From positions 3,954-15,939 of the forward strand of contig JAPLVQ010000075.1 of assembly GCA_026397035.1 (NCBI GenBank): a DNA stretch of 11,986 bases. Reading direction: 5' to 3'. The number at the start of each line of letters is the position of its first letter. Position 1 is the stretch's first letter. Below are positions 1,326-11,986 of the stretch, in pieces. A model generated the notes under the pieces. That model had not been told where the DNA came from, made no database searches, and saw only the letters and a program-made list of their open reading frames with translations. This DNA comes from Candidatus Iainarchaeum sp. GTDB taxonomy: Archaea; Iainarchaeota; Iainarchaeia; Iainarchaeales; JAAZKV01. Position numbers and translations under genes: made by a program.

Positions 1326-2153
1326 TTAGTTCCCTTTCTTTCCAGGGTTTTTTGCTGGAGCCTTTGCGTCTGTTTTTCCAGCTGGTGCTGCAGCTGGTGT
1401 TTTTGCTCCTGCTGCTGTGCCTTTTGTATCTGTTGCAGCCGGTGCGCCTGTTTTTGCTCCTGCTGTCCCTTCTGCTGTTGGTGTTGTTCCTTCTGTTCCT
1501 GGTGCTGCTTCCGTTTTCTTTACTTCGATTATTAGTTCTTCAATTGCTTTTGTTGGCAGTGTGCCTAAACTTTTAATATCATTATGAAATTTTGAATGTA
1601 CTTTACAAGGGAATTTTGCTTTTGCTCTGTGTAATGCTTTTTTTACAATATCCATTTGTTCTTTCATGCATAATATACTAAAAACTACTTGTCCTTTTCT
1701 TACTCTTGCTGCTCTCCCAATTGGTATTCCAAATGCTAGTGACATTCCTTGTGATACACGATCAGCTCCGGCTCCTTGTGCTTGTTTATTTTCTCTCATT
1801 ATGTTTGAAGGGAATACTCTTACTTTCATGAAGTATCCATCTTTTCCAAGGTCTTTAACGAGTTTTCTGTTTACTGTAGCTCTAACGCTTTCAATCGCGT
1901 TGTCTCTAATATCAAGTGCTTCTTCAACAATTAAATCAGCAACAGTGTCATATTTTAGTGTTGGGTTTCCCATGTTAAATTGTCTTACTTTTATTTGCGG
2001 TGCTGCTCCAATATAGTTTCTGTCAGGCACTTTGATTGCAATTCTTGAGTATGCTCTTTGTTGTCTTAATTTTCTCGCGTGTCCGCTACAGCCTTTAGTT
2101 ATTCTGTTTAATTTCTTCGGGCTCCTGTAACAGTGTGCTGGTCTTATACTCAT
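1326..2153 (-). CDS. rpl10e: 50S ribosomal protein L10e (uL16) with long C-terminal low-complexity tail
   Basis: This is a core component of the large ribosomal subunit, close to the peptidyl-transferase centre and the A-site tRNA. The archaeal L10e core is evident: RQFNMGN (58-64), RDNAIESVRATVNRKL (83-98), ENKQAQGAGADRVSQGM (121-137), FGIPIGRAARVRKGQVVFSI (141-160) and the ALHRAKAKFPCKV end (173-185). The start is supported by GGTGA four bases before the ATG. Two things are odd. A basic stretch at about residues 13-35 looks like an insertion relative to most archaeal homologues. Residues 211-275 form a tail of almost only A, P, T, G, K, D and E, whereas the family normally ends near 170-180 aa. 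The tail DNA is strikingly GC-richer than its surroundings. Confidence 0.95.
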   Translation of the reverse strand: MSIRPAHCYRSPKKLNRITKGCSGHARKLRQQRAYSRIAIKVPDRNYIGAAPQIKVRQFNMGNPTLKYDTVADLIVEEALDIRDNAIESVRATVNRKLVKDLGKDGYFMKVRVFPSNIMRENKQAQGAGADRVSQGMSLAFGIPIGRAARVRKGQVVFSILCMKEQMDIVKKALHRAKAKFPCKVHSKFHNDIKSLGTLPTKAIEELIIEVKKTEAAPGTEGTTPTAEGTAGAKTGAPAATDTKGTAAGAKTPAAAPAGKTDAKAPAKNPGKKGN

Positions 2154-3760: not shown

Positions 3761-4948
3761 TCAGTTTTTCTTTTTTGTTGTGATAATAAACACGGCAGAG
3801 ATGGCAACAATAATTACAAGAGTAATATTGGAATCAGGGATAGGGGTATTGTTTGGATTAGCTTTGGCTACTAAAAATGAATTATCTTTAGTACAACTGC
3901 CAACTTCAAGTCGTGCGAGATATATTCCGTTTAAACCGGAAGGGATTGAATAATTTGTAAAAGTTCCTTCAACAGTACCGCATCGTTGCGTGTCGTCTTC
4001 ATGGATGAGATTTCCAAGGGGATCAAAAATATATAATTTCATGGCAAGGTTATCAAACGCGCATGAATAATGAATAGAGACTTTTGCGCCAGAATAAGCT
4101 TTATCTGCTTTGATTTTTGAAATATTGCATTCTAATTCATAGCCGGTCGGGGGATTACTTGTGCCGTATAAACTTGAATTGTAATCTATAAAACTAATTG
4201 TGTCGGACTGGCACAAATTGTCTTTAGTGCTAAGAATTGCGGTAAATGTTTTACTTGTTGTGGTAGGACTCATGTTTAGTCTGGAGTCACTTGCCTTTAT
4301 TGAGAATACTTTTTGGGAACTAGTGCAGGCGTTTCCTCCGTTTAATTCAAAGTTCAAATTTTCGGGTGTGGCTAAAATATTTACTTCGTAAGAAGAATCT
4401 GTGCCTTGGCAGGAATATGTAAAATCAATATTTTCATTAACTTGTGCGTCGTAGGCTGTTTTATTTGTTGAGATATTTAGTGTTGGGCAAGTTGGTAGCA
4501 CTGACTTGCAGCAGAAATTAATTTGGTTTGCGCCAAAAATATTTCCGGTGCATGTTGAAAGGTGTGCATTAGTTAAATCGCTTAAAGCAAAAATACAATT
4601 ATATCCTGCATTGCATGCAGTTCCCGGGGAGGAGTAATTGCATATGTTTGAGATAAAAATATCGCTTTTCATGCAAATATTGTAATTATTATAATTTGTT
4701 TGAGTGTTAGTTTCCGCGTGTGCATTAGTCGCGTCACTTAAGCCTAGAACTTTAATTCCCCCAAACAAGCAACTCCTTAGTATTGATGAATTAACAGTAA
4801 TATCTCTTGTGTAAGCGCAAAGTGCTTCTTGCGGTTTGCATGAGTGGGATTCAGCGGTGTTATCAGAATATTTAACTAAAGTCGTATCCGTGGCAAGCAT
4901 CCAGGAGCAAAGAATAATAATAGCAAAAAAAATATATAACTTTCTCAT
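3761..4948 (-). CDS. Cys-rich surface protein with TNAH repeats, Ig-like regions and C-terminal membrane anchor
   Basis: The 395-aa product begins with a signal peptide (residues 1-19, RKLYIFFAIIILCSWMLA). The N-terminal third (35-154) is rich in cysteine and holds two copies of a motif: LSDATNAHAE (70-79) followed by YNICM, and LSDLTNAHLS (122-131) followed by INFCC. Residues 155-262 and 270-360 look like two Ig-like beta-sandwich regions with many Thr/Asn/Ser and paired cysteines. The C terminus has a Pro/Asn linker (363-372), a hydrophobic helix (375-390) and KKKN, so it is anchored with most of the chain outside. This tripartite end also resembles archaeosortase signals, although no PGF or PEF box is present. 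A TATATAAT element lies about 29 bp before the ATG. Likely an adhesin or envelope protein; the ligand is unknown. Confidence 0.7.
   Translation of the reverse strand: MRKLYIFFAIIILCSWMLATDTTLVKYSDNTAESHSCKPQEALCAYTRDITVNSSILRSCLFGGIKVLGLSDATNAHAETNTQTNYNNYNICMKSDIFISNICNYSSPGTACNAGYNCIFALSDLTNAHLSTCTGNIFGANQINFCCKSVLPTCPTLNISTNKTAYDAQVNENIDFTYSCQGTDSSYEVNILATPENLNFELNGGNACTSSQKVFSIKASDSRLNMSPTTTSKTFTAILSTKDNLCQSDTISFIDYNSSLYGTSNPPTGYELECNISKIKADKAYSGAKVSIHYSCAFDNLAMKLYIFDPLGNLIHEDDTQRCGTVEGTFTNYSIPSGLNGIYLARLEVGSCTKDNSFLVAKANPNNTPIPDSNITLVIIVAISAVFIITTKKKN
4508..4753 (-). repeat. two TNAH repeats in the surface protein gene
   Basis: Codons 66-93 and 118-147 of the surface protein encode related units: hydrophobic-LSD-x-TNAH-x-(E/S)-T, a spacer of 10-15 residues, then a Tyr/Asn-rich or Phe-containing stretch ending in cysteine. 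The core ACTAATGCACAC is identical in both at DNA level on the minus strand. Confidence 0.55.
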
Positions 4949-5126: not shown

Positions 5127-5546
5127 CTAAAAACATTTTTTGGAATAGGCTTCTTTCTTTGCTTCATAAACATAGTTGCCGTTTGGCAAAATATTTCTTA
5201 CTCCTCCAACCGGATTTTTTATATCGCCAAAGTAACGCGGAATCAAGTGGCAATGAAAGTGGTCAATTGAACGGCCAGCAGCATTTCCTTCATTAATTCC
5301 TATGTTAAATCCGTCAGGTGAAAATTGTTTTTGGACAACTTCTTTTGTTTTTCCCAATATTTCAAAGAACTCTTTTTGCTCAATAGCAGTTAAATCAAAA
5401 AATGAAAGAATATGTTTTTTTGGGAAAACCTCGCAATGTCCTTTAGAAACAGGGAAATCATCAAATCGAGAAAAAAATAGATCATTTTCAAGAATTACTT
5501 GTGAATCTTTTTTAATTGACGCATCACAAAAGAAACATGGTCTCAT
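5127..5546 (-). CDS. HIT-family nucleotide hydrolase
   Basis: A histidine-triad protein of 139 aa, normal for the family. It carries the catalytic H-x-H-x-H at His96, His98 and His100 (DHFHCHLIPRY) and the upstream NIGINEGNAAGRS loop that contacts the nucleotide. The PVSKGHCEVFPKKHI strand (32-46) and the NPVGGVR tail motif (111-117) are seen in Ap4A and AMP-lysine/AMP-X hydrolases. Cys4 and Cys7 (CFFC) could hold zinc with a later histidine, as in many HIT proteins. Such enzymes cleave nucleoside phosphoramidates or dinucleoside polyphosphates in the cytoplasm. AGGTGA lies four bases before the ATG and overlaps the stop codon of the preceding micro-ORF, so translation is probably coupled to it. 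The exact substrate is not predictable. Confidence 0.92.
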   Translation of the reverse strand: MRPCFFCDASIKKDSQVILENDLFFSRFDDFPVSKGHCEVFPKKHILSFFDLTAIEQKEFFEILGKTKEVVQKQFSPDGFNIGINEGNAAGRSIDHFHCHLIPRYFGDIKNPVGGVRNILPNGNYVYEAKKEAYSKKCF

Positions 5547-5550
5547 ATAA

Positions 5551-5661
5551 TCACCTTAAAATCAAATATGTATCTCGGTCAATAATTTCTCCAGTGTTAA
5601 AAGCTATTTCAGCTTTATCGCATTTGCGAGGGTGCGTTCGAATAGGTTTAGTTGATTTCAT
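5551..5661 (-). CDS. micro-ORF A (36 aa), member of a repeated small-protein family
   Basis: Its ATG overlaps the stop of the Bro-N gene (ATGA), and its TGA lies in the AGGTGA ribosome-binding site of the HIT gene, four bases before that start. The core, residues 7-26, reads IRTHPRKCDKAEIAFNTGEI and aligns without gaps to micro-ORFs B and C and, over the first 11 positions, to D. The GCA-TGA that ends B and C is changed here to ACA-TAT, so the frame runs six codons longer. There is no signal peptide or membrane segment, one cysteine, and a basic N-terminal half. I do not recognise the family. It could be a small cytoplasmic protein, a leader peptide used for translational coupling, or a non-coding repeat that happens to stay open. 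Confidence 0.5.
   Translation of the reverse strand: MKSTKPIRTHPRKCDKAEIAFNTGEIIDRDTYLILR
5584..5643 (-). repeat. 60-bp element shared with 8035-8094
   Basis: Reading the minus strand, this stretch matches 8035-8094 at 51 of 60 positions without gaps, including 34 of 35 in the block that contains the hairpin AAAGCT-GAAAT-AGCTTT. Seven of the eight changed codons alter the amino acid. The segment lies inside micro-ORF A. Confidence 0.75.
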
Positions 5662-6545
5662 TTTATCATCTTTTTCCTTTTATCTTTTTCCGGCTCGGTT
5701 AAGTAATTTTCTCCAGTGGTTACTTTTCGTCCAATTTCCATTTCCAAATTATTTCTGGCATCTCCTGCAATTTTTCCGCCTTTTTGTGCAGCAACTGTAT
5801 TTTCATCAAATCCTTGCGCTTCTTTTACTCTTGCGATTTCAGTTGTTGCCCGTTCTCCAAGCATTGAAAAGATAAGTTCCAAATCATTCATGTGGTCCCT
5901 AAGGTTTTCTTTTTTTAGTTGTTTGAGTTCTTTATATTCTTGCACGGTTTTGCCAAAAGTTGCTTTGCTTATTTCGTTTGTTAAAATAGCATATTCTTTA
6001 TCTTCTTTTACTCCTCTTTTATTCCATTCATCTGTTAGTTCTTGTCTTATTATAATCCCTCTCACTCTTTTCTCAATCCAATCCTCAGAATATCCTTTTG
6101 CCTTGTAAATCTCTCTCATTCTCTTTTGGGCAAGCTCAGGGTCCTGTATCTCTTGCACTCTTTCATATCCTACTTGTGCGAGCCATTGTTTGAATGGTTC
6201 TGCTTTTGGTGAAGGTATTGATTGGATTATTCTAAACATATTTTTGGCGTTCGCACAGTCAGTTTCATAGTATTTGCCGTCTGCGGAGGGTAATTTCAGT
6301 TGTACACAAAGTGTGTACAACTCAATTCCAGATTCTTTTTCCCTTATTTTAAGCATGTTCCAATAGTTTCTGGGATTATCGCTTTCAGTCAACGCAGTAA
6401 CAACATCAATAACGCTAAAATACCATTCTTCATCGTGCCATAATCGCCTTATTTTCTTGTCCTGAAAAACGACCAATGCTTTGTTCTCGTCCAAAAAACC
6501 ACCGCTATAATACGCTCTGTTTAATACTGATTTCTTTAGATTCAT
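5658..6545 (-). CDS. Bro-N / DinD-like DNA-damage or antirepressor-type protein
   Basis: The 295-aa protein has two parts. Residues 22-125 resemble the Bro-N domain of phage and virus antirepressors: DKKIRRLWHDEEWYFSVIDV, then LTESDNPRNYWNMLKIRE, and later the helix FKQWLAQVGYERVQ. Residues 135-283 resemble E. coli DinD, with DHMNDLELIFSMLGERATTE (217-236) followed by NNLEMEIGRKV and LTEP near the end. DinD is damage-inducible and interferes with RecA filaments, while Bro-N proteins bind DNA. The role in an archaeon is unknown; control of a mobile element or of a recombinase is plausible. The gene follows a 163-bp gap with its own probable promoter (TTATAA at 6605-6610) and overlaps micro-ORF A by four bases at its end. 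Confidence 0.8.
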   Translation of the reverse strand: MNLKKSVLNRAYYSGGFLDENKALVVFQDKKIRRLWHDEEWYFSVIDVVTALTESDNPRNYWNMLKIREKESGIELYTLCVQLKLPSADGKYYETDCANAKNMFRIIQSIPSPKAEPFKQWLAQVGYERVQEIQDPELAQKRMREIYKAKGYSEDWIEKRVRGIIIRQELTDEWNKRGVKEDKEYAILTNEISKATFGKTVQEYKELKQLKKENLRDHMNDLELIFSMLGERATTEIARVKEAQGFDENTVAAQKGGKIAGDARNNLEMEIGRKVTTGENYLTEPEKDKRKKMIK

Positions 6546-6602
6546 AATTTAAGCTTTCCATAACCATTTTGCCGGTGGTATGGGGGTATTAAGCTGAATT
6601 AG

Positions 6603-6612
6603 GGTTATAACC
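6603..6612. promoter_or_regulatory. palindrome GGTTATAACC containing a probable TATA box for the Bro-N gene
   Basis: This is a perfect 10-bp palindrome whose TTATAA centre would be a TATA box for the minus-strand Bro-N gene, giving a leader of roughly 35 nt. A factor binding the palindrome would block the core promoter, and self-repression by the Bro-N protein is one possibility. The rest of the 163-bp gap shows only A/T-rich runs. Confidence 0.4.
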
Positions 6613-6708
6613 AAAAATGAAGAAATGATTGTTTTTGATAAAAACGAGGTCAATTAGGATTTTTTGAAAGAATGGGTATTTTTTTTATTAAAATATTTAA
6701 TTTTAAAT

Positions 6709-7458
6709 TTAGTCATGTCCGCCGTCAATAACAATGTTGCTGCCCGTCAAATAAGCGGCATCATCTGAAGCCAAGAATAATATTAATTTTGCAATTTCTT
6801 CCGGGGTCGCGAATCTTTTGAGGTATATTTTATTTGTTTCTTCTTTGATAAACTCTTTTGAAAGGTTTTTGTTCATGTCGGTATCTACCCAGCCAGGGGC
6901 AACAGAGTTGACTCTAATTGTTGGGGCTAATTCTTTTGCCAAGTTTTTTGTTAGAGTTAATATTCCTGCTTTTGCTGCATCATAATCCATTGATTCTGGG
7001 TTAAAGCTATTTATTGCATTAGTTGATGCAATGTTAATAATTGAGCCAGTTTTCATTACTTTTGCGACTTGTTTTGAACACAAAAACAGTCCAATAAGGT
7101 TTACTTCAAGAGTCCTTTTCCAGTGCTCGGCACTTTTTTTATCAAATGGTTCATCATAAACTATTCCTGCATTATTCACAAGGACATCAATCTTGCCAAA
7201 TTCTTTAACTGCTTTGTTAAACAGTTGTTTGACTTCATCTTCACTTGAAACATCACATTCTATAGCAACTGCTTTGCCGCCCGATTTTTGTATTTCACTA
7301 ACCACTGTCGCTGCATTTTCTTTAGCATTTAACTCAAATTCAGAAACGTGGTAGTCCACAACAATACTGGCGCCTTCTTTAGCAAAAAGCAACGCCGTTG
7401 CTTTCCCGATTCCTCTCGAAGCACCGGTTACTAAAACAACTTTTCCTTTAAATTTCAT
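6709..7458 (-). CDS. short-chain dehydrogenase/reductase (FabG-like SDR)
   Basis: This 249-aa classical SDR has a complete active site. The cofactor loop is TGASRGIG (11-18), the structural motif NNAG (95-98), and the catalytic tetrad Asn120, Ser145 (INIAST), Tyr159 and Lys163 (YDAAK). The PGWVDTDM (188-195) and DGG (245-247) segments are also typical. Cofactor choice is ambiguous: Arg15 in the glycine loop favours NADP(H), while Asp35 after the second strand favours NAD(H). It closely resembles 3-oxoacyl-ACP reductases, but archaea usually lack the ACP pathway, so a sugar, alcohol or polyol oxidoreductase role is as likely. GAAGGTAAG precedes the ATG by a few bases. It is the last gene before the Bro-N promoter gap. 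Confidence 0.93.
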   Translation of the reverse strand: MKFKGKVVLVTGASRGIGKATALLFAKEGASIVVDYHVSEFELNAKENAATVVSEIQKSGGKAVAIECDVSSEDEVKQLFNKAVKEFGKIDVLVNNAGIVYDEPFDKKSAEHWKRTLEVNLIGLFLCSKQVAKVMKTGSIINIASTNAINSFNPESMDYDAAKAGILTLTKNLAKELAPTIRVNSVAPGWVDTDMNKNLSKEFIKEETNKIYLKRFATPEEIAKLILFLASDDAAYLTGSNIVIDGGHD

Positions 7459-7515
7459 AATACTTACCTTCTTAATAAATCCTTATAAAATCGATTAATC
7501 TTTTCATTTTATCAA

Positions 7516-7605
7516 TCATGCAACTCGGTTTGAAATTTCTCTCGTTTCATCCAGTTTGGGGGGCTTCCCACACACCGTGTTGCACATTCGAACCGGTTTA
7601 TTCAT
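7516..7605 (-). CDS. micro-ORF C (29 aa), member of a repeated small-protein family
   Basis: Its ATG overlaps the stop of the DUF523 gene (ATGA) and is preceded by GAGGCGA, a usable Shine-Dalgarno site. The core, residues 5-24, reads VRMCNTVCGKPPKLDETREI. It shares GTTCGAATG at the head, GAGAAATT near the end, and CCRAG-N-TGCATGAT over the stop with micro-ORF B, at exactly the same 78-nt spacing (head to stop); the centre is much diverged. It has two cysteines (C8, C12). It lies 57 bp upstream of the SDR start. The family is not recognised. Confidence 0.45.
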   Translation of the reverse strand: MNKPVRMCNTVCGKPPKLDETREISNRVA

Positions 7606-8000
7606 TTTGTCGCCTCGAGTATTTCTTTTAAATTTGTCTCAATTTCTTTTTCTGTGAAAACTTTTATACCATTTTGTTTCAATTCTTTTGTTAATATGCC
7701 GTCTCCAGAAATTAACTTCTCTGTAAAAGTGCCGTCATATATTTGCCCGCTGCCGCAAGAAGGCGATTTTGCTTTTAAAATAGCAAACTTGCAATTACTC
7801 ATTTTTGCAATTTTCAAAACTTCTTTTGCGCCATTAACAAAATTGGGTGTTACATCCACACCATTTTTTGTGAATACGTTGCCTTCTTTTATTTCAGCAG
7901 GCGTTCTCGGGGTTGGTAGCCCGCCAAGTTGTTCGGGACAAATAGGGTCGCCTTTGTAATTGCAATTTATTCCTGCCAAACAACCGCTCACAATAATCAT
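7602..8000 (-). CDS. DUF523 protein, TudS-like putative [4Fe-4S] desulfidase
   Basis: The 132-aa protein matches DUF523 along its length: SGCLAGINCNYKG (5-17), CPEQLGGLPTPRTPAEI (21-37), and KAKSPSCGSGQIYDGTF (76-92). The three cysteines conserved in the family, here Cys7, Cys13 and Cys82, hold a [4Fe-4S] cluster in TudS, the characterised DUF523 enzyme that removes sulfur from 2-thiouracil. I infer a similar thio-base desulfidase or cluster-dependent enzyme. Length is normal for stand-alone DUF523. GGTGA lies a few bases before the ATG, 16 bp after the stop of micro-ORF B, and the gene's own stop overlaps micro-ORF C. No obvious pathway partner is nearby. Confidence 0.85.
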   Translation of the reverse strand: MIIVSGCLAGINCNYKGDPICPEQLGGLPTPRTPAEIKEGNVFTKNGVDVTPNFVNGAKEVLKIAKMSNCKFAILKAKSPSCGSGQIYDGTFTEKLISGDGILTKELKQNGIKVFTEKEIETNLKEILEATK

Positions 8001-8016
8001 TTCTTCACCTTCAATA

Positions 8017-8112
8017 TCATGCAGCTTGGCCGGGAATTTCTCCGGTGTTAAAAGCTATTTCAGCTTTATCGTTTTCGCAAGCGCGCATTCGAACCTGTTT
8101 GTTTGAGTCCAT
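8017..8112 (-). CDS. micro-ORF B (31 aa), member of a repeated small-protein family
   Basis: This micro-ORF has the clearest ribosome-binding site of the family: GGTGAT four bases before the ATG, 12 bp after the lipoprotein stop. The core, residues 7-26, reads VRMRACENDKAEIAFNTGEI; the last 12 residues of that core are identical to micro-ORF A. It ends in AA-stop with the same GCA-TGA as micro-ORF C. The DUF523 start follows 16 bp later with its own GGTGA. There is no membrane segment. The family is not recognised. Confidence 0.5.
   Translation of the reverse strand: MDSNKQVRMRACENDKAEIAFNTGEIPGQAA
8035..8094 (-). repeat. 60-bp element shared with 5584-5643
   Basis: This is the second copy of the element in micro-ORF A, in the same orientation, 2451 bp away. 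51 of 60 positions are identical with no gaps. Confidence 0.75.
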
Positions 8113-8124
8113 AGTATCACCAAA

Positions 8125-8703
8125 CTACTTTTTGACAAGAACTTCTTTTGCTATATTCAAAGAATAAGATCTAATTCTGTATTCAAGATTGCTGTCTGAA
8201 AAAAAATTTATTGGCAAGTTAACATCTACTGAAAGTTTTTTTGATATTTGCGAACTTTCCTTCATGCACCACCAACCAATTGATTCTGTGTAAACACAAT
8301 TCTTGTCTTGGGAGCCACAAGTCATTTTGAATGGGTCATAAACTATTTCCCACCCACTTGGCTTGGCGGAAGCATCAACCTTTTTTTCTACTACAAAACT
8401 ATTTATGGAATATTTACAGACTTTAACTTCTTCCGCTGAAGTCAGTGTTACGTTAACAAAATTAGTGTCAATTTGATTAACACACAATTTTAGTCCATTT
8501 TCATTAACACACTCAAAATTATTACTTAAATTTACATCAATCACTGGGCATTGAGCAAATTCACAATTGGGGAGAGTTCTTCCAACTGCGGAACCATCCG
8601 GACAAAGCTTAGCTTCTTTCGTACACGCTTTAGGTGAATCAGTACAACCAAAAAGAATTGTTAAAACAAGCAATAAACCTAAAATAATAATAATTTTTTT
8701 CAT
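8125..8703 (-). CDS. small membrane lipoprotein of unknown function
   Basis: The 192-aa product starts MKKIIIILGLLLVLTILFGC, a signal peptide ending in a lipobox with Cys20 as the lipid site, so it is exported and tethered to the outer face of the membrane. After a short linker comes a Cys-rich motif, CTKEAKLCPDGSAVGR (27-42) continuing to C47 and C52, which recurs in many secreted archaeal and bacterial proteins and probably forms two disulfides. Residues 60-190 are beta-rich and contain five further cysteines. I do not recognise this domain. It begins 14 bp after micro-ORF D and is followed after 12 bp by micro-ORF B, so it is part of the operon. Confidence 0.8.
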   Translation of the reverse strand: MKKIIIILGLLLVLTILFGCTDSPKACTKEAKLCPDGSAVGRTLPNCEFAQCPVIDVNLSNNFECVNENGLKLCVNQIDTNFVNVTLTSAEEVKVCKYSINSFVVEKKVDASAKPSGWEIVYDPFKMTCGSQDKNCVYTESIGWWCMKESSQISKKLSVDVNLPINFFSDSNLEYRIRSYSLNIAKEVLVKK

Positions 8704-8717
8704 TTTAATCTACCAAT

Positions 8718-8918
8718 TTATCCAAGTACATAAAAGTTTGAAGTAGTATAAAAAATGTGCTGCCCAATAGTTGCTCCCATTCCAGGCATCTTGTTGCCAG
8801 CTAAAGCAATGCAGCCGCCGGTTTTGGCTGGGGAATCGAGGCCATTTGAAGCTTTTTCGCATTCCACGGGATGCATTTGAACCGGCTGAGCCTTAATTAT
8901 CTTATCTTTGTTATCCAT
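8718..8918 (-). CDS. micro-ORF D (66 aa), longest member of the repeated small-protein family
   Basis: I place the start at 8918, not at the upstream ATG at 8933, because GAGGTGGAT sits five bases before the inner ATG. Residues 13-32 read VQMHPVECEKASNGLDSPAK. Their first 11 positions match micro-ORF A as (V/I)x(M/T)HPxxC(D/E)KA, and the Val-x-Met head also matches B and C. The extra C-terminal part (33-66) is Gly-rich (TGGCIALAGNKMPGMGATIG) and ends with an aromatic stretch. It lies 30 bp after the CpXC stop and 14 bp before the lipoprotein start. The length and the strong ribosome-binding site make real translation most credible for this copy. Function is unknown. Confidence 0.6.
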   Translation of the reverse strand: MDNKDKIIKAQPVQMHPVECEKASNGLDSPAKTGGCIALAGNKMPGMGATIGQHIFYTTSNFYVLG

Positions 8919-8948
8919 TTTAATCCACCTCATCTCAATAAATTAATA

Positions 8949-10623: not shown

Positions 10624-11217
10624 ATGGCAAGAGTACTGATAACCCCTATTTATGAGACTGGCTCAATATCCTTGGCAGTAAACAGATTTTCGATTGAAAG
10701 AGTATTTTTGTTAGTTTCAAAAAAGACTGATGATACCCAACAAGCGGCTGTCAAATACATAAAAGACCATTATGAAAAAATAATTGAAATTAAAGAGAAA
10801 AAAATTGAACTTTATGATCTGGTTGAAACTGCCCATCAAGTCAAAGACGTAATCGATGATTTGTCAAATACTGATGAGATTTACTTAAATATTTCCACTG
10901 GCCGAAGAACACAAGTATTGGGTATTTTATTTGCGGCTTACAAAAGACCAGATCGAATAAAAAAGATTTTCTATGTGGCGTCCGAAAATAACGAAATTAT
11001 CACAATCCCAATTTTAAGTCTAGATGTGACCCCAGCACAACAAAAGATATTGGAGAACATTGAAGAAATTGATAAAATCAGTGAGATGTCGACTGAAATT
11101 GAAGTAAGCAAAGCAATGGTTTACAGGGCAATAAAAGAACTCAAAGATAAAGGTCTAATTGAAGAAAGCGACAAAGGATACAAACTAACCGAAGCTGGGC
11201 GAATAGCAAAAATGTGA
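10624..11217 (+). CDS. CARF-winged-helix transcriptional regulator (Csa3-like)
   Basis: The 197-aa protein has a Rossmann-like N-terminal half starting MARVLITPIYETGSISLAVN, then IERVFLLVSKKTDD, and the ligand-site motif LNISTGRRTQ (88-97) followed by a helix. This is the CARF layout, in which the S/T-G-x-R segment contacts cyclic oligoadenylate or related nucleotides. Residues 134-195 form a winged helix-turn-helix: TPAQQKILENIEEIDKISEM, then EIEVSKAMVYRAIKELKDKG and a GYKLTEAGR wing. This domain order is that of Csa3 regulators of CRISPR loci. Here the next gene is hsdM, 27 bp downstream in the same direction, so it probably regulates restriction-modification. Two GTATAC-type repeats upstream are its likely operators. 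No cas gene is visible in the window. Confidence 0.85.
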   Translation: MARVLITPIYETGSISLAVNRFSIERVFLLVSKKTDDTQQAAVKYIKDHYEKIIEIKEKKIELYDLVETAHQVKDVIDDLSNTDEIYLNISTGRRTQVLGILFAAYKRPDRIKKIFYVASENNEIITIPILSLDVTPAQQKILENIEEIDKISEMSTEIEVSKAMVYRAIKELKDKGLIEESDKGYKLTEAGRIAKM

Positions 11218-11244: not shown

Positions 11245-11986
11245 ATGTTAGACATTAAAACTCTTGAATCTTGGCTCTGGGAAGCCGCTTGTAAAATAAG
11301 AGGCCCTGTGGACGCCCCAAAATATAAAGATTATATTCTGCCATTAATTTTTTTAAAGAGACTTTCAGATGTCTTTGACGAAGAAATTGAAAAACTAGTA
11401 AAAGAATATGGTGATAAAAAAACTGTTGAAGAATTAGTTGAAGAAGATCATTCCCTTGTTTGGTTTTATATTCCAAAAAATTCTCGCTGGTCAGAAATAT
11501 TCAAAAAAAGCACAAAAATTGGGGAATTTCTAACAGATGCTGTTAGAGCAATTGCAAGAGAGAATCCAAAACTTCAAGGAGTAATAGATATACGTGATTT
11601 CAACGAAACAGCGGCAGGACAAAGAACAATTAGCGATGATTCACTCAAGGCATTGATTGATGTTTTGAATAGACACAAACTTGGGCTAGGCGATGCAGAA
11701 CCAGATATTTTAGGAAGAGCATATGAATATTTGCTAAGAAAGTTTGCTGAAGGATCTGGACAAAGTGCAGGGGAATTCTACACTCCAAAAGAAGTTGCCA
11801 TACTAATGGCAAAAATAGTTGATCCCAGTGAAGGGGAGGAAGTCTATGACCCTTGTTTAGGCTCTGGGGGGCTTATCATAAAAACATATTTGCGCTTCAA
11901 AGAGAAATATGGGGATGATGCAAAAATAAAACCCTTACAATTTTTTGGGCAAGAATTACTACATGGAACTTATGCAATGGCCCGAA
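11245..11986 (+). CDS. hsdM: type I restriction-modification methyltransferase subunit HsdM, N-terminal part
   Basis: The frame begins at the ATG at 11245 with GGTG eight bases upstream and is cut by the right edge after 247 codons. It opens with the HsdM N-terminal helical domain (LESWLWEAACKIRGPVDAPK, then YILPLIFLKRLSDVFDEE). The AdoMet domain follows: YEYLLRKFAEGSGQSAGEFY, TPKEVAILMAKIV, and motif I DPCLGSGGLI. The catalytic NPPF motif would lie just beyond the window. HsdM methylates adenine in the site chosen by HsdS and forms a complex with HsdS and HsdR, whose genes should follow. It lies 27 bp after the CARF regulator and is almost certainly in its operon. Confidence 0.95.
   Translation, partial: MLDIKTLESWLWEAACKIRGPVDAPKYKDYILPLIFLKRLSDVFDEEIEKLVKEYGDKKTVEELVEEDHSLVWFYIPKNSRWSEIFKKSTKIGEFLTDAVRAIARENPKLQGVIDIRDFNETAAGQRTISDDSLKALIDVLNRHKLGLGDAEPDILGRAYEYLLRKFAEGSGQSAGEFYTPKEVAILMAKIVDPSEGEEVYDPCLGSGGLIIKTYLRFKEKYGDDAKIKPLQFFGQELLHGTYAMAR

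Follow-up and report, generated by a model that had tools for sequence, protein, structure and literature searches.

Why do short open reading frames recur between the genes of an archaeal gene run? The question is raised by a stretch of 11,986 nucleotides (nt) from Candidatus Iainarchaeum sp. (contig JAPLVQ010000075.1), called the window in the following, in which an initial annotation had pointed to four gaps in a minus-strand run of genes that hold frames of 36, 29, 31 and 66 codons. All four are present on the minus strand and are referred to as micro-ORF A (5551..5661, 36 amino acids), B (7516..7605, 29 amino acids), C (8017..8112, 31 amino acids) and D (8718..8918, 66 amino acids, or 71 if begun at the ATG at 8933). 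They had been proposed to be a new small-protein family, leader peptides coupling translation, or a repeat that inserts between cistrons. Our analysis indicates that A to D are probably the Int(N) ends of self-splitting tyrosine-recombinase (integrase) genes, each with an arm-like site and an attachment core derived from tRNA-Gly(CCC), and that they are most likely not a new family of small proteins. The inserting repeat is the closest of the three earlier proposals, as the elements look like the ends of integration events, whereas the movement of the units in the window is our inference.

The four copies are related more than chance allows: a profile of A to D recovers a fifth copy and D recovers an environmental protein. 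The fifth copy, named E, lies on contig C55 of the same genome and was found at an E-value of 6.9e-7 with a profile from which it had been left out. The environmental protein P0002 (81 amino acids) was matched by D at an E-value of 1.2e-7. The nature of the frames is best seen in copy E, whose right half shares 138 identical nt with the beginning of an integrase gene on contig C61. This gene encodes a tyrosine recombinase of 273 amino acids, a Phage_integrase protein, and its ATG overlaps the 3' end of an intron-bearing tRNA-Gly(CCC). The remainder of E connects it to the window: D and E share a block of 73 identical nt and are divergent on either side of it, and the block shared with D and the block shared with C61 have CCGGCGGCTGCAT, the tRNA-Gly 3' end, as their overlap. 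In E, start signals, a short N-part, the tRNA-derived core and then 42 integrase codons follow each other in frame. P0002 is arranged in the same way and extends three residues past the end point of E, so that in both the attachment core lies inside the reading frame. At E <= 1e-10 the C61 integrase is the single integrase gene that was found in the own genome, accompanied by the piece in E, and 9 of 192 other relatives have a match. The assignment of D and E as remnants of Int(N) and core is well supported. For A, B and C it is suggested by their likeness to D and E, their position and the spacing of their motifs.

The initial annotation had aligned the cores of the four frames. Their relatedness stands, but the alignment rests mainly on two DNA motifs, namely GGTTCRAAT and a core that resembles the 3' end of a tRNA. 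GGTTCRAAT, which translates as V-R/Q-M, occurs three times on the 15.9-kb contig when both strands are scanned, once each inside B, C and D. On the minus strand it reads GGTTCGAAT in B (7586..7594) and C (8087..8095) and GGTTCAAAT in D (8875..8883). At the same place A has a degenerate form, TATTCGAAC (5636..5644), recognized from sequence and alignment. The core, likewise on the minus strand, is clearest in D, where 13 nt, again CCGGCGGCTGCAT (8809..8821), are identical to the tRNA-Gly(CCC) 3' end on C61 and are crossed by the reading frame. In C (8016..8041), AATTCCCGGC and GCTGCATGATA from the 3' end and flank of the same tRNA are separated by two extra bases, giving 21 nt in two pieces. 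The core-like end of B, TTCAAACCGAGTTGCATGAT (7515..7534), is diverged and was found with a loose pattern which also matches control sequence, and that of A, ATTATTGACCGAGATACAT (5568..5586), is strongly diverged and a weak assignment. TGCATGAT is confined to the ends of B and C on the whole contig. The own genome is 77% complete and gave 26 tRNA matches. Among its tRNA genes and their flanks, tRNA-Gly(CCC) is the sole exact match of more than 10 nt for C, D and E, and B has 11 nt of the T-arm in common with a tRNA-Ser. The length of the element, taken as the spacing of the motifs, is 81 versus 79 nt.

Likeness among the copies is a mosaic. Left of the core, A and C are identical at 60 of 75 nt, whereas A and B, and likewise C and B, agree at 35 of 75 nt, a value equalled by 1 of 2000 shuffles. 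Further copies had been expected in the genome or its relatives. In the own genome E fits this expectation, but among 193 genomes (own and relatives) the best match outside the own genome had an E-value of 0.09. A search of 87 genomes of the phylum gave weak matches in two others (E-values 0.0098 and 0.011). No further micro-ORF copies were detected in viral contigs, nor in genome contigs with P0002 as query, and a search with an alignment of three copies added no new one.

Related integrase loci were surveyed with an alignment of 12 related integrases as query, which matched 155 loci in genomes with names. The analysis went on with the top 80; by eye, about 71 of these carry Micrarchaeota or Micrarchaeaceae in their titles. 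A tRNA gene on the same strand ends at most 400 nt upstream in 63 of the 80 loci, and in 55 of them no stop interrupts the integrase frame across the tRNA 3' end. In a first pass, 24 of the 80 loci with a repeat covering the tRNA end had been picked by hand; this was later replaced by a rule, giving 29 loci at E <= 0.05 and, for downstream copies of the tRNA end of at least 16 nt, 33 distal sites in 27 loci. In the integrase frame, an ATG with an SD-like (Shine-Dalgarno-like) motif is found at most 60 codons upstream of the distal core at 16 of the 33 sites. The same test is positive at 1 and 3 of the 33 sites in the other two frames and at 112 of 1320 random positions (binomial P 2e-9). Such a layout corresponds to the division into Int(N) and Int(C) of SSV-type integrases.

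The N-parts of the surveyed loci are not those of the window; related elements in other genomes carry their own short N-parts at the corresponding place. In 11 of the 27 loci (L088, L089, L098, L103, L110, L120, L123, L128, L130, L133 and L136) they start with M-K/E-L-E, and the adjoining tRNAs are labelled Val, Pro, Glu, Asn, Gln and Tyr. At 5 of the 33 sites, in 4 of the 27 loci (L069, L082, L086 and L124), the distal core is followed by the start of the integrase; of the C-part, L069 has preserved 199 nt or more. Short direct repeats flank the core on both sides in L120, L128, L131 and L133, which suggests arm sites. The two arms may, by analogy, be GGTTCRAAT in the window elements and GGTTCGAATACCGG to the right of the C61 core. 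Extra short core matches in L079, L085, L133 and L136 and the second one in L072 were taken as chance or unclear. L120 (13285-13409) and L128 (15276-15404) have double cores: two tRNA-end cores about 93-103 nt apart are joined by one frame, with a similar intervening peptide in both. A similarity of 93 nt right of the core in these two loci comes from the second core and was excluded as an integrase start.

The following course of events would account for what is directly seen, that is the continuity of N-part, core and 42 codons in E, the junction of tRNA and integrase on C61, and the matching layout of related loci. Before integration, the integrase gene of the element would consist of an SD site, an ATG, a short N-part, the tRNA-derived core and the catalytic C-part. 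Recombination with a tRNA gene would split this gene, leaving the C-part beside the tRNA, as on contig C61, and the N-part with a copy of the core at the far end (attR). With its start signals and tRNA-derived core, each window element resembles one end of such a site-specific integration event. Segments of one or two genes would then be small elements stacked at shared cores, which may have been moved by an integrase acting in trans.

Splitting of an integrase gene upon integration is known for the SSV-type (type I, suicidal) integrases of the SSV, pTN3-like and pT26-2-like families, as described in the available part of PMC8371274. As there, the attachment site lies inside the integrase gene and is translated in the protein, and Int(N) comes to lie at the far end while Int(C) stays beside the tRNA. 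A system of the SSV type would further imply that integration disables the enzyme and that an intact integrase from another source is required for excision. The same text assigns the suicidal integrases to the PF16795 lineage, with a single origin and a K/YxxR box, whereas the proteins studied here match PF00589 in 10 of 10 cases and PF16795 in none of 10 at E <= 0.1, and have an HxxR box. They also differ in their DPANN hosts and in the single-gene segments between cores. Neither 'Micrarchaeota' nor 'DPANN' occurs in the available part of that article. Columns invariant among the 12 integrases include R, K, HxxR, H and Y, which we take to be the catalytic residues. The nearest solved structure (5hxy, E-value 3.6e-7) and the nearest curated model (NF040815) are of the XerA/XerC type, but with 62.8 bits the integrase stays far below the cut-off of 220 bits, and its position beside a tRNA with a frame running through the tRNA is also unlike that type. 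Judged from sequence, the present integrases would thus work like the SSV type in layout while standing outside its protein lineage. The statement that no such family had been described holds in part: searches of an open-access literature collection gave no paper on self-splitting in the present integrase family or on single-gene arrays of such sites, but SSV-type gene splitting is known.

The layout of the window, where four sites are separated by one, one and two genes which all point in one direction, has counterparts elsewhere. Contig G068:C88 carries five exact copies of ATTCCCGGCGGGGGCA on a single strand: one in the end of a tRNA-Arg, one directly after it and three at 10889, 11401 and 12182. 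A micro-ORF with an SD site ends at two of the last three, and the 75 nt to the left of these two agree at 58 positions. The segments between the cores contain a HicA-like gene together with a HicB-like remnant (by eye) and one gene for a protein of 199 amino acids. In L086, one ATPase-like gene (by eye) lies between two similar cores, the N-part is repeated, and each core is followed by 59-61 nt resembling the integrase start. The intervening genes in G068:C88 and L086 are all oriented like the integrase. The record of G068:C88, which is also locus L067, is titled Chloroflexi; a genome search places it in the order of the window's genome, and the title is probably wrong.

These arrays would be compatible with the window being a mobile cassette array. 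As a tentative and rather doubtful generalization, DPANN archaea would possess a gene-cassette system unrelated to integrons, in which single genes end in the 5' end of a self-splitting integrase and a full integrase stacks such units in trans behind tRNA genes. The attachment site would comprise start signals, a short N-part, the arm site, the tRNA-derived core and sometimes a piece of the C-part. If a unit landed between the tRNA and an Int(C) already in place, a translated Int(N) would be rejoined to the latter and the integrase could be switched back on; such reactivation would account for the retention of start signals in units without the rest of the gene. Somewhat better placed, though still short of an even chance, is the view that the array is a relic, in which larger tandem elements with self-splitting integrases decayed or recombined and left attR ends and a few genes. 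The single-gene units would then never have moved, and the micro-ORFs would still be remnants of Int(N). The diverged cores of A and B fit this, as do the retained C-part pieces in E and P0002 and the longer one in L069, and both tandem integration and the exchange of Int(N) and Int(C) halves are described for archaeal elements in the available part of PMC8371274. The short tandem segments with identical cores in G068:C88 and similar ones in L086, and the common orientation of all genes of the window array, are less easily reconciled with decay. Repeated tRNA 3' ends as element boundaries are likewise a feature of tandem genomic islands that occupy tRNA genes (Islander, PMC4383910, available part), but the present segments hold one or two genes and lack the catalytic integrase part.

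The genes around the micro-ORFs, all on the minus strand, were assigned by Pfam. A HIT-domain gene (5127..5546, PF01230) lies downstream of A, a Bro-N gene (5658..6545, PF02498) and an SDR gene (6709..7458, PF13561/PF00106) between B and A, and a DUF523-type gene (7602..8000, PF04463) between C and B. The lipoprotein-like gene between D and C (8125..8703) was labelled by eye; neither it nor D had a Pfam match. Further window proteins match CpXC (PF14353) and M16 (PF00675). For the M16 gene, which lies upstream of D, 3 of 10 other near genomes hold matches at E <= 1e-20, with 26-31% identity. No tRNA genes were found in the window by a tRNA scan and no known RNA families at E <= 1. An imperfect hairpin-like inverted repeat, seen by eye between the SDR and Bro-N genes (6546-6653, minus strand), is unlike the four micro-ORF elements. 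On the plus strand lie a regulator with HFX_2341/Csa3-like N-terminal and winged-helix domains (10624-11217) and, at the right end of the window, a frame (11247-11986, by eye) that resembles HsdM, the methylase subunit of a type I restriction-modification system. At the left edge, an N/X run within two overlapping frames (L023, about 3911-4041), with a short peptide repeated on either side, is probably an assembly gap, and further left (L023, 1-2259, minus strand) a phosphoenolpyruvate-synthase-like frame is broken by an intein-like stretch (by eye). Contig C55, which carries copy E, encodes a primase-polymerase-like protein (L022, 1603-3969, minus strand, PF09250 and PF01807) and could belong to a replicating mobile element. 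In another region of it (L022, 7062-8591, minus strand), a domain of a type I R subunit (PF22679) lies beside a YgjP-like gene. In L034, a tRNA-Cys (1436-1559, minus strand) and the tRNA-Gly(CCC) (1716-1903, plus strand) contain introns and were both missed by the default tRNA scan.

The start signals and short distances that had been noted for the four frames were confirmed by reading the sequence. A starts in an ATGA overlap with the Bro-N stop, B in an ATGA overlap with the DUF523 stop and with GAGGCG upstream, and C and D are preceded by the SD sites GGTGAT and GAGGTG, respectively. The next gene follows after 4 nt (A to HIT), 57 nt (B to SDR), 16 nt (C to DUF523) and 14 nt (D to the lipoprotein-like gene). 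Such an arrangement would suit leader peptides coupling translation to the next gene. We nevertheless regard these as unlikely, since B is 57 nt away from the next start, the core and the arm motif account for the shared sequence, and the next genes, as had been stated before, are unrelated by Pfam; coupling could occur as a side effect. The start signals retained in A to E and the profile relatedness could speak for a small-protein family with a function of its own in operon gaps, which is very unlikely. The frame in E and P0002 forms the beginning of an integrase and continues into it, the elements of other genomes have their own N-parts, and no significant copies were found in the other genomes searched. 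Moreover, a comparison of A and C over the 20 nt that follow CGA in the V-R-M motif shows 7 differences, none of which falls on a third codon position, a pattern that would not be expected from protein conservation. HP..C[DE]KA is common to A, D, E and P0002, which are too few copies for judging selection.

Finally, the arrangement recalls integrons, including the archaeal ones treated with their attC sites and IntI in PMC9668308 (available part): single genes share one orientation, a recombination site follows each of them, and one integrase could serve many units. The ends of B, C, D and E are moreover able to pair. An integron is all the same highly improbable here. The site is a tRNA end within an integrase 5' end, the window contains no RYYYAAC...GTTRRRY pair at 30-150 nt, and the own-genome integrase reaches 51 bits against a cut-off of 265 for the IntI model TIGR02249. 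The fold signal is weak (z of -0.3 to -2.8 against shuffles, bar one positive value) and the consensus structure poor. The idea of attC sites or hairpins was dropped, as consensus folding, shuffles and the missing boxes gave it no support.

Several observations weigh against the interpretation of A to D as Int(N) ends. The loose pattern used for the core, besides finding B and C, matches 7 control places that lack a tRNA end. The A and B cores have diverged strongly, and in A, B and C the reading frame stops at the core without read-through. The contig of the array has neither a tRNA nor an integrase. In the survey the integrase frame is closed within the tRNA in 8 of the 63 loci, and the start test failed at 17 of the 33 distal sites, although at 3 of these (L067) the failure is partly due to the choice of the wrong core copy, out of two, for setting the frame. 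An intact, unsplit gene was not seen, and scans of viral contigs gave no relative of the integrase. When the profile of the window copies was run over the 80 loci and two stretches, the best E-value was 1.2 and the micro-ORFs of G068 were missed. The likeness between the arms of the window and of G068 is weak (26-29 of 75 nt, equalled by 2-11% of shuffles).

If A to D are indeed Int(N) ends of self-splitting integrases, the self-splitting strategy would extend from the single PF16795 lineage treated in the available part of PMC8371274 to PF00589 recombinases that are common in Micrarchaeota and relatives, which would suggest a second origin. If the cassette system exists as well, archaea with small genomes could gather single genes without integrons. 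In either case, recurrent micro-ORFs in the operon gaps of archaea call for caution, as they can be remnants of attachment sites instead of new small proteins.

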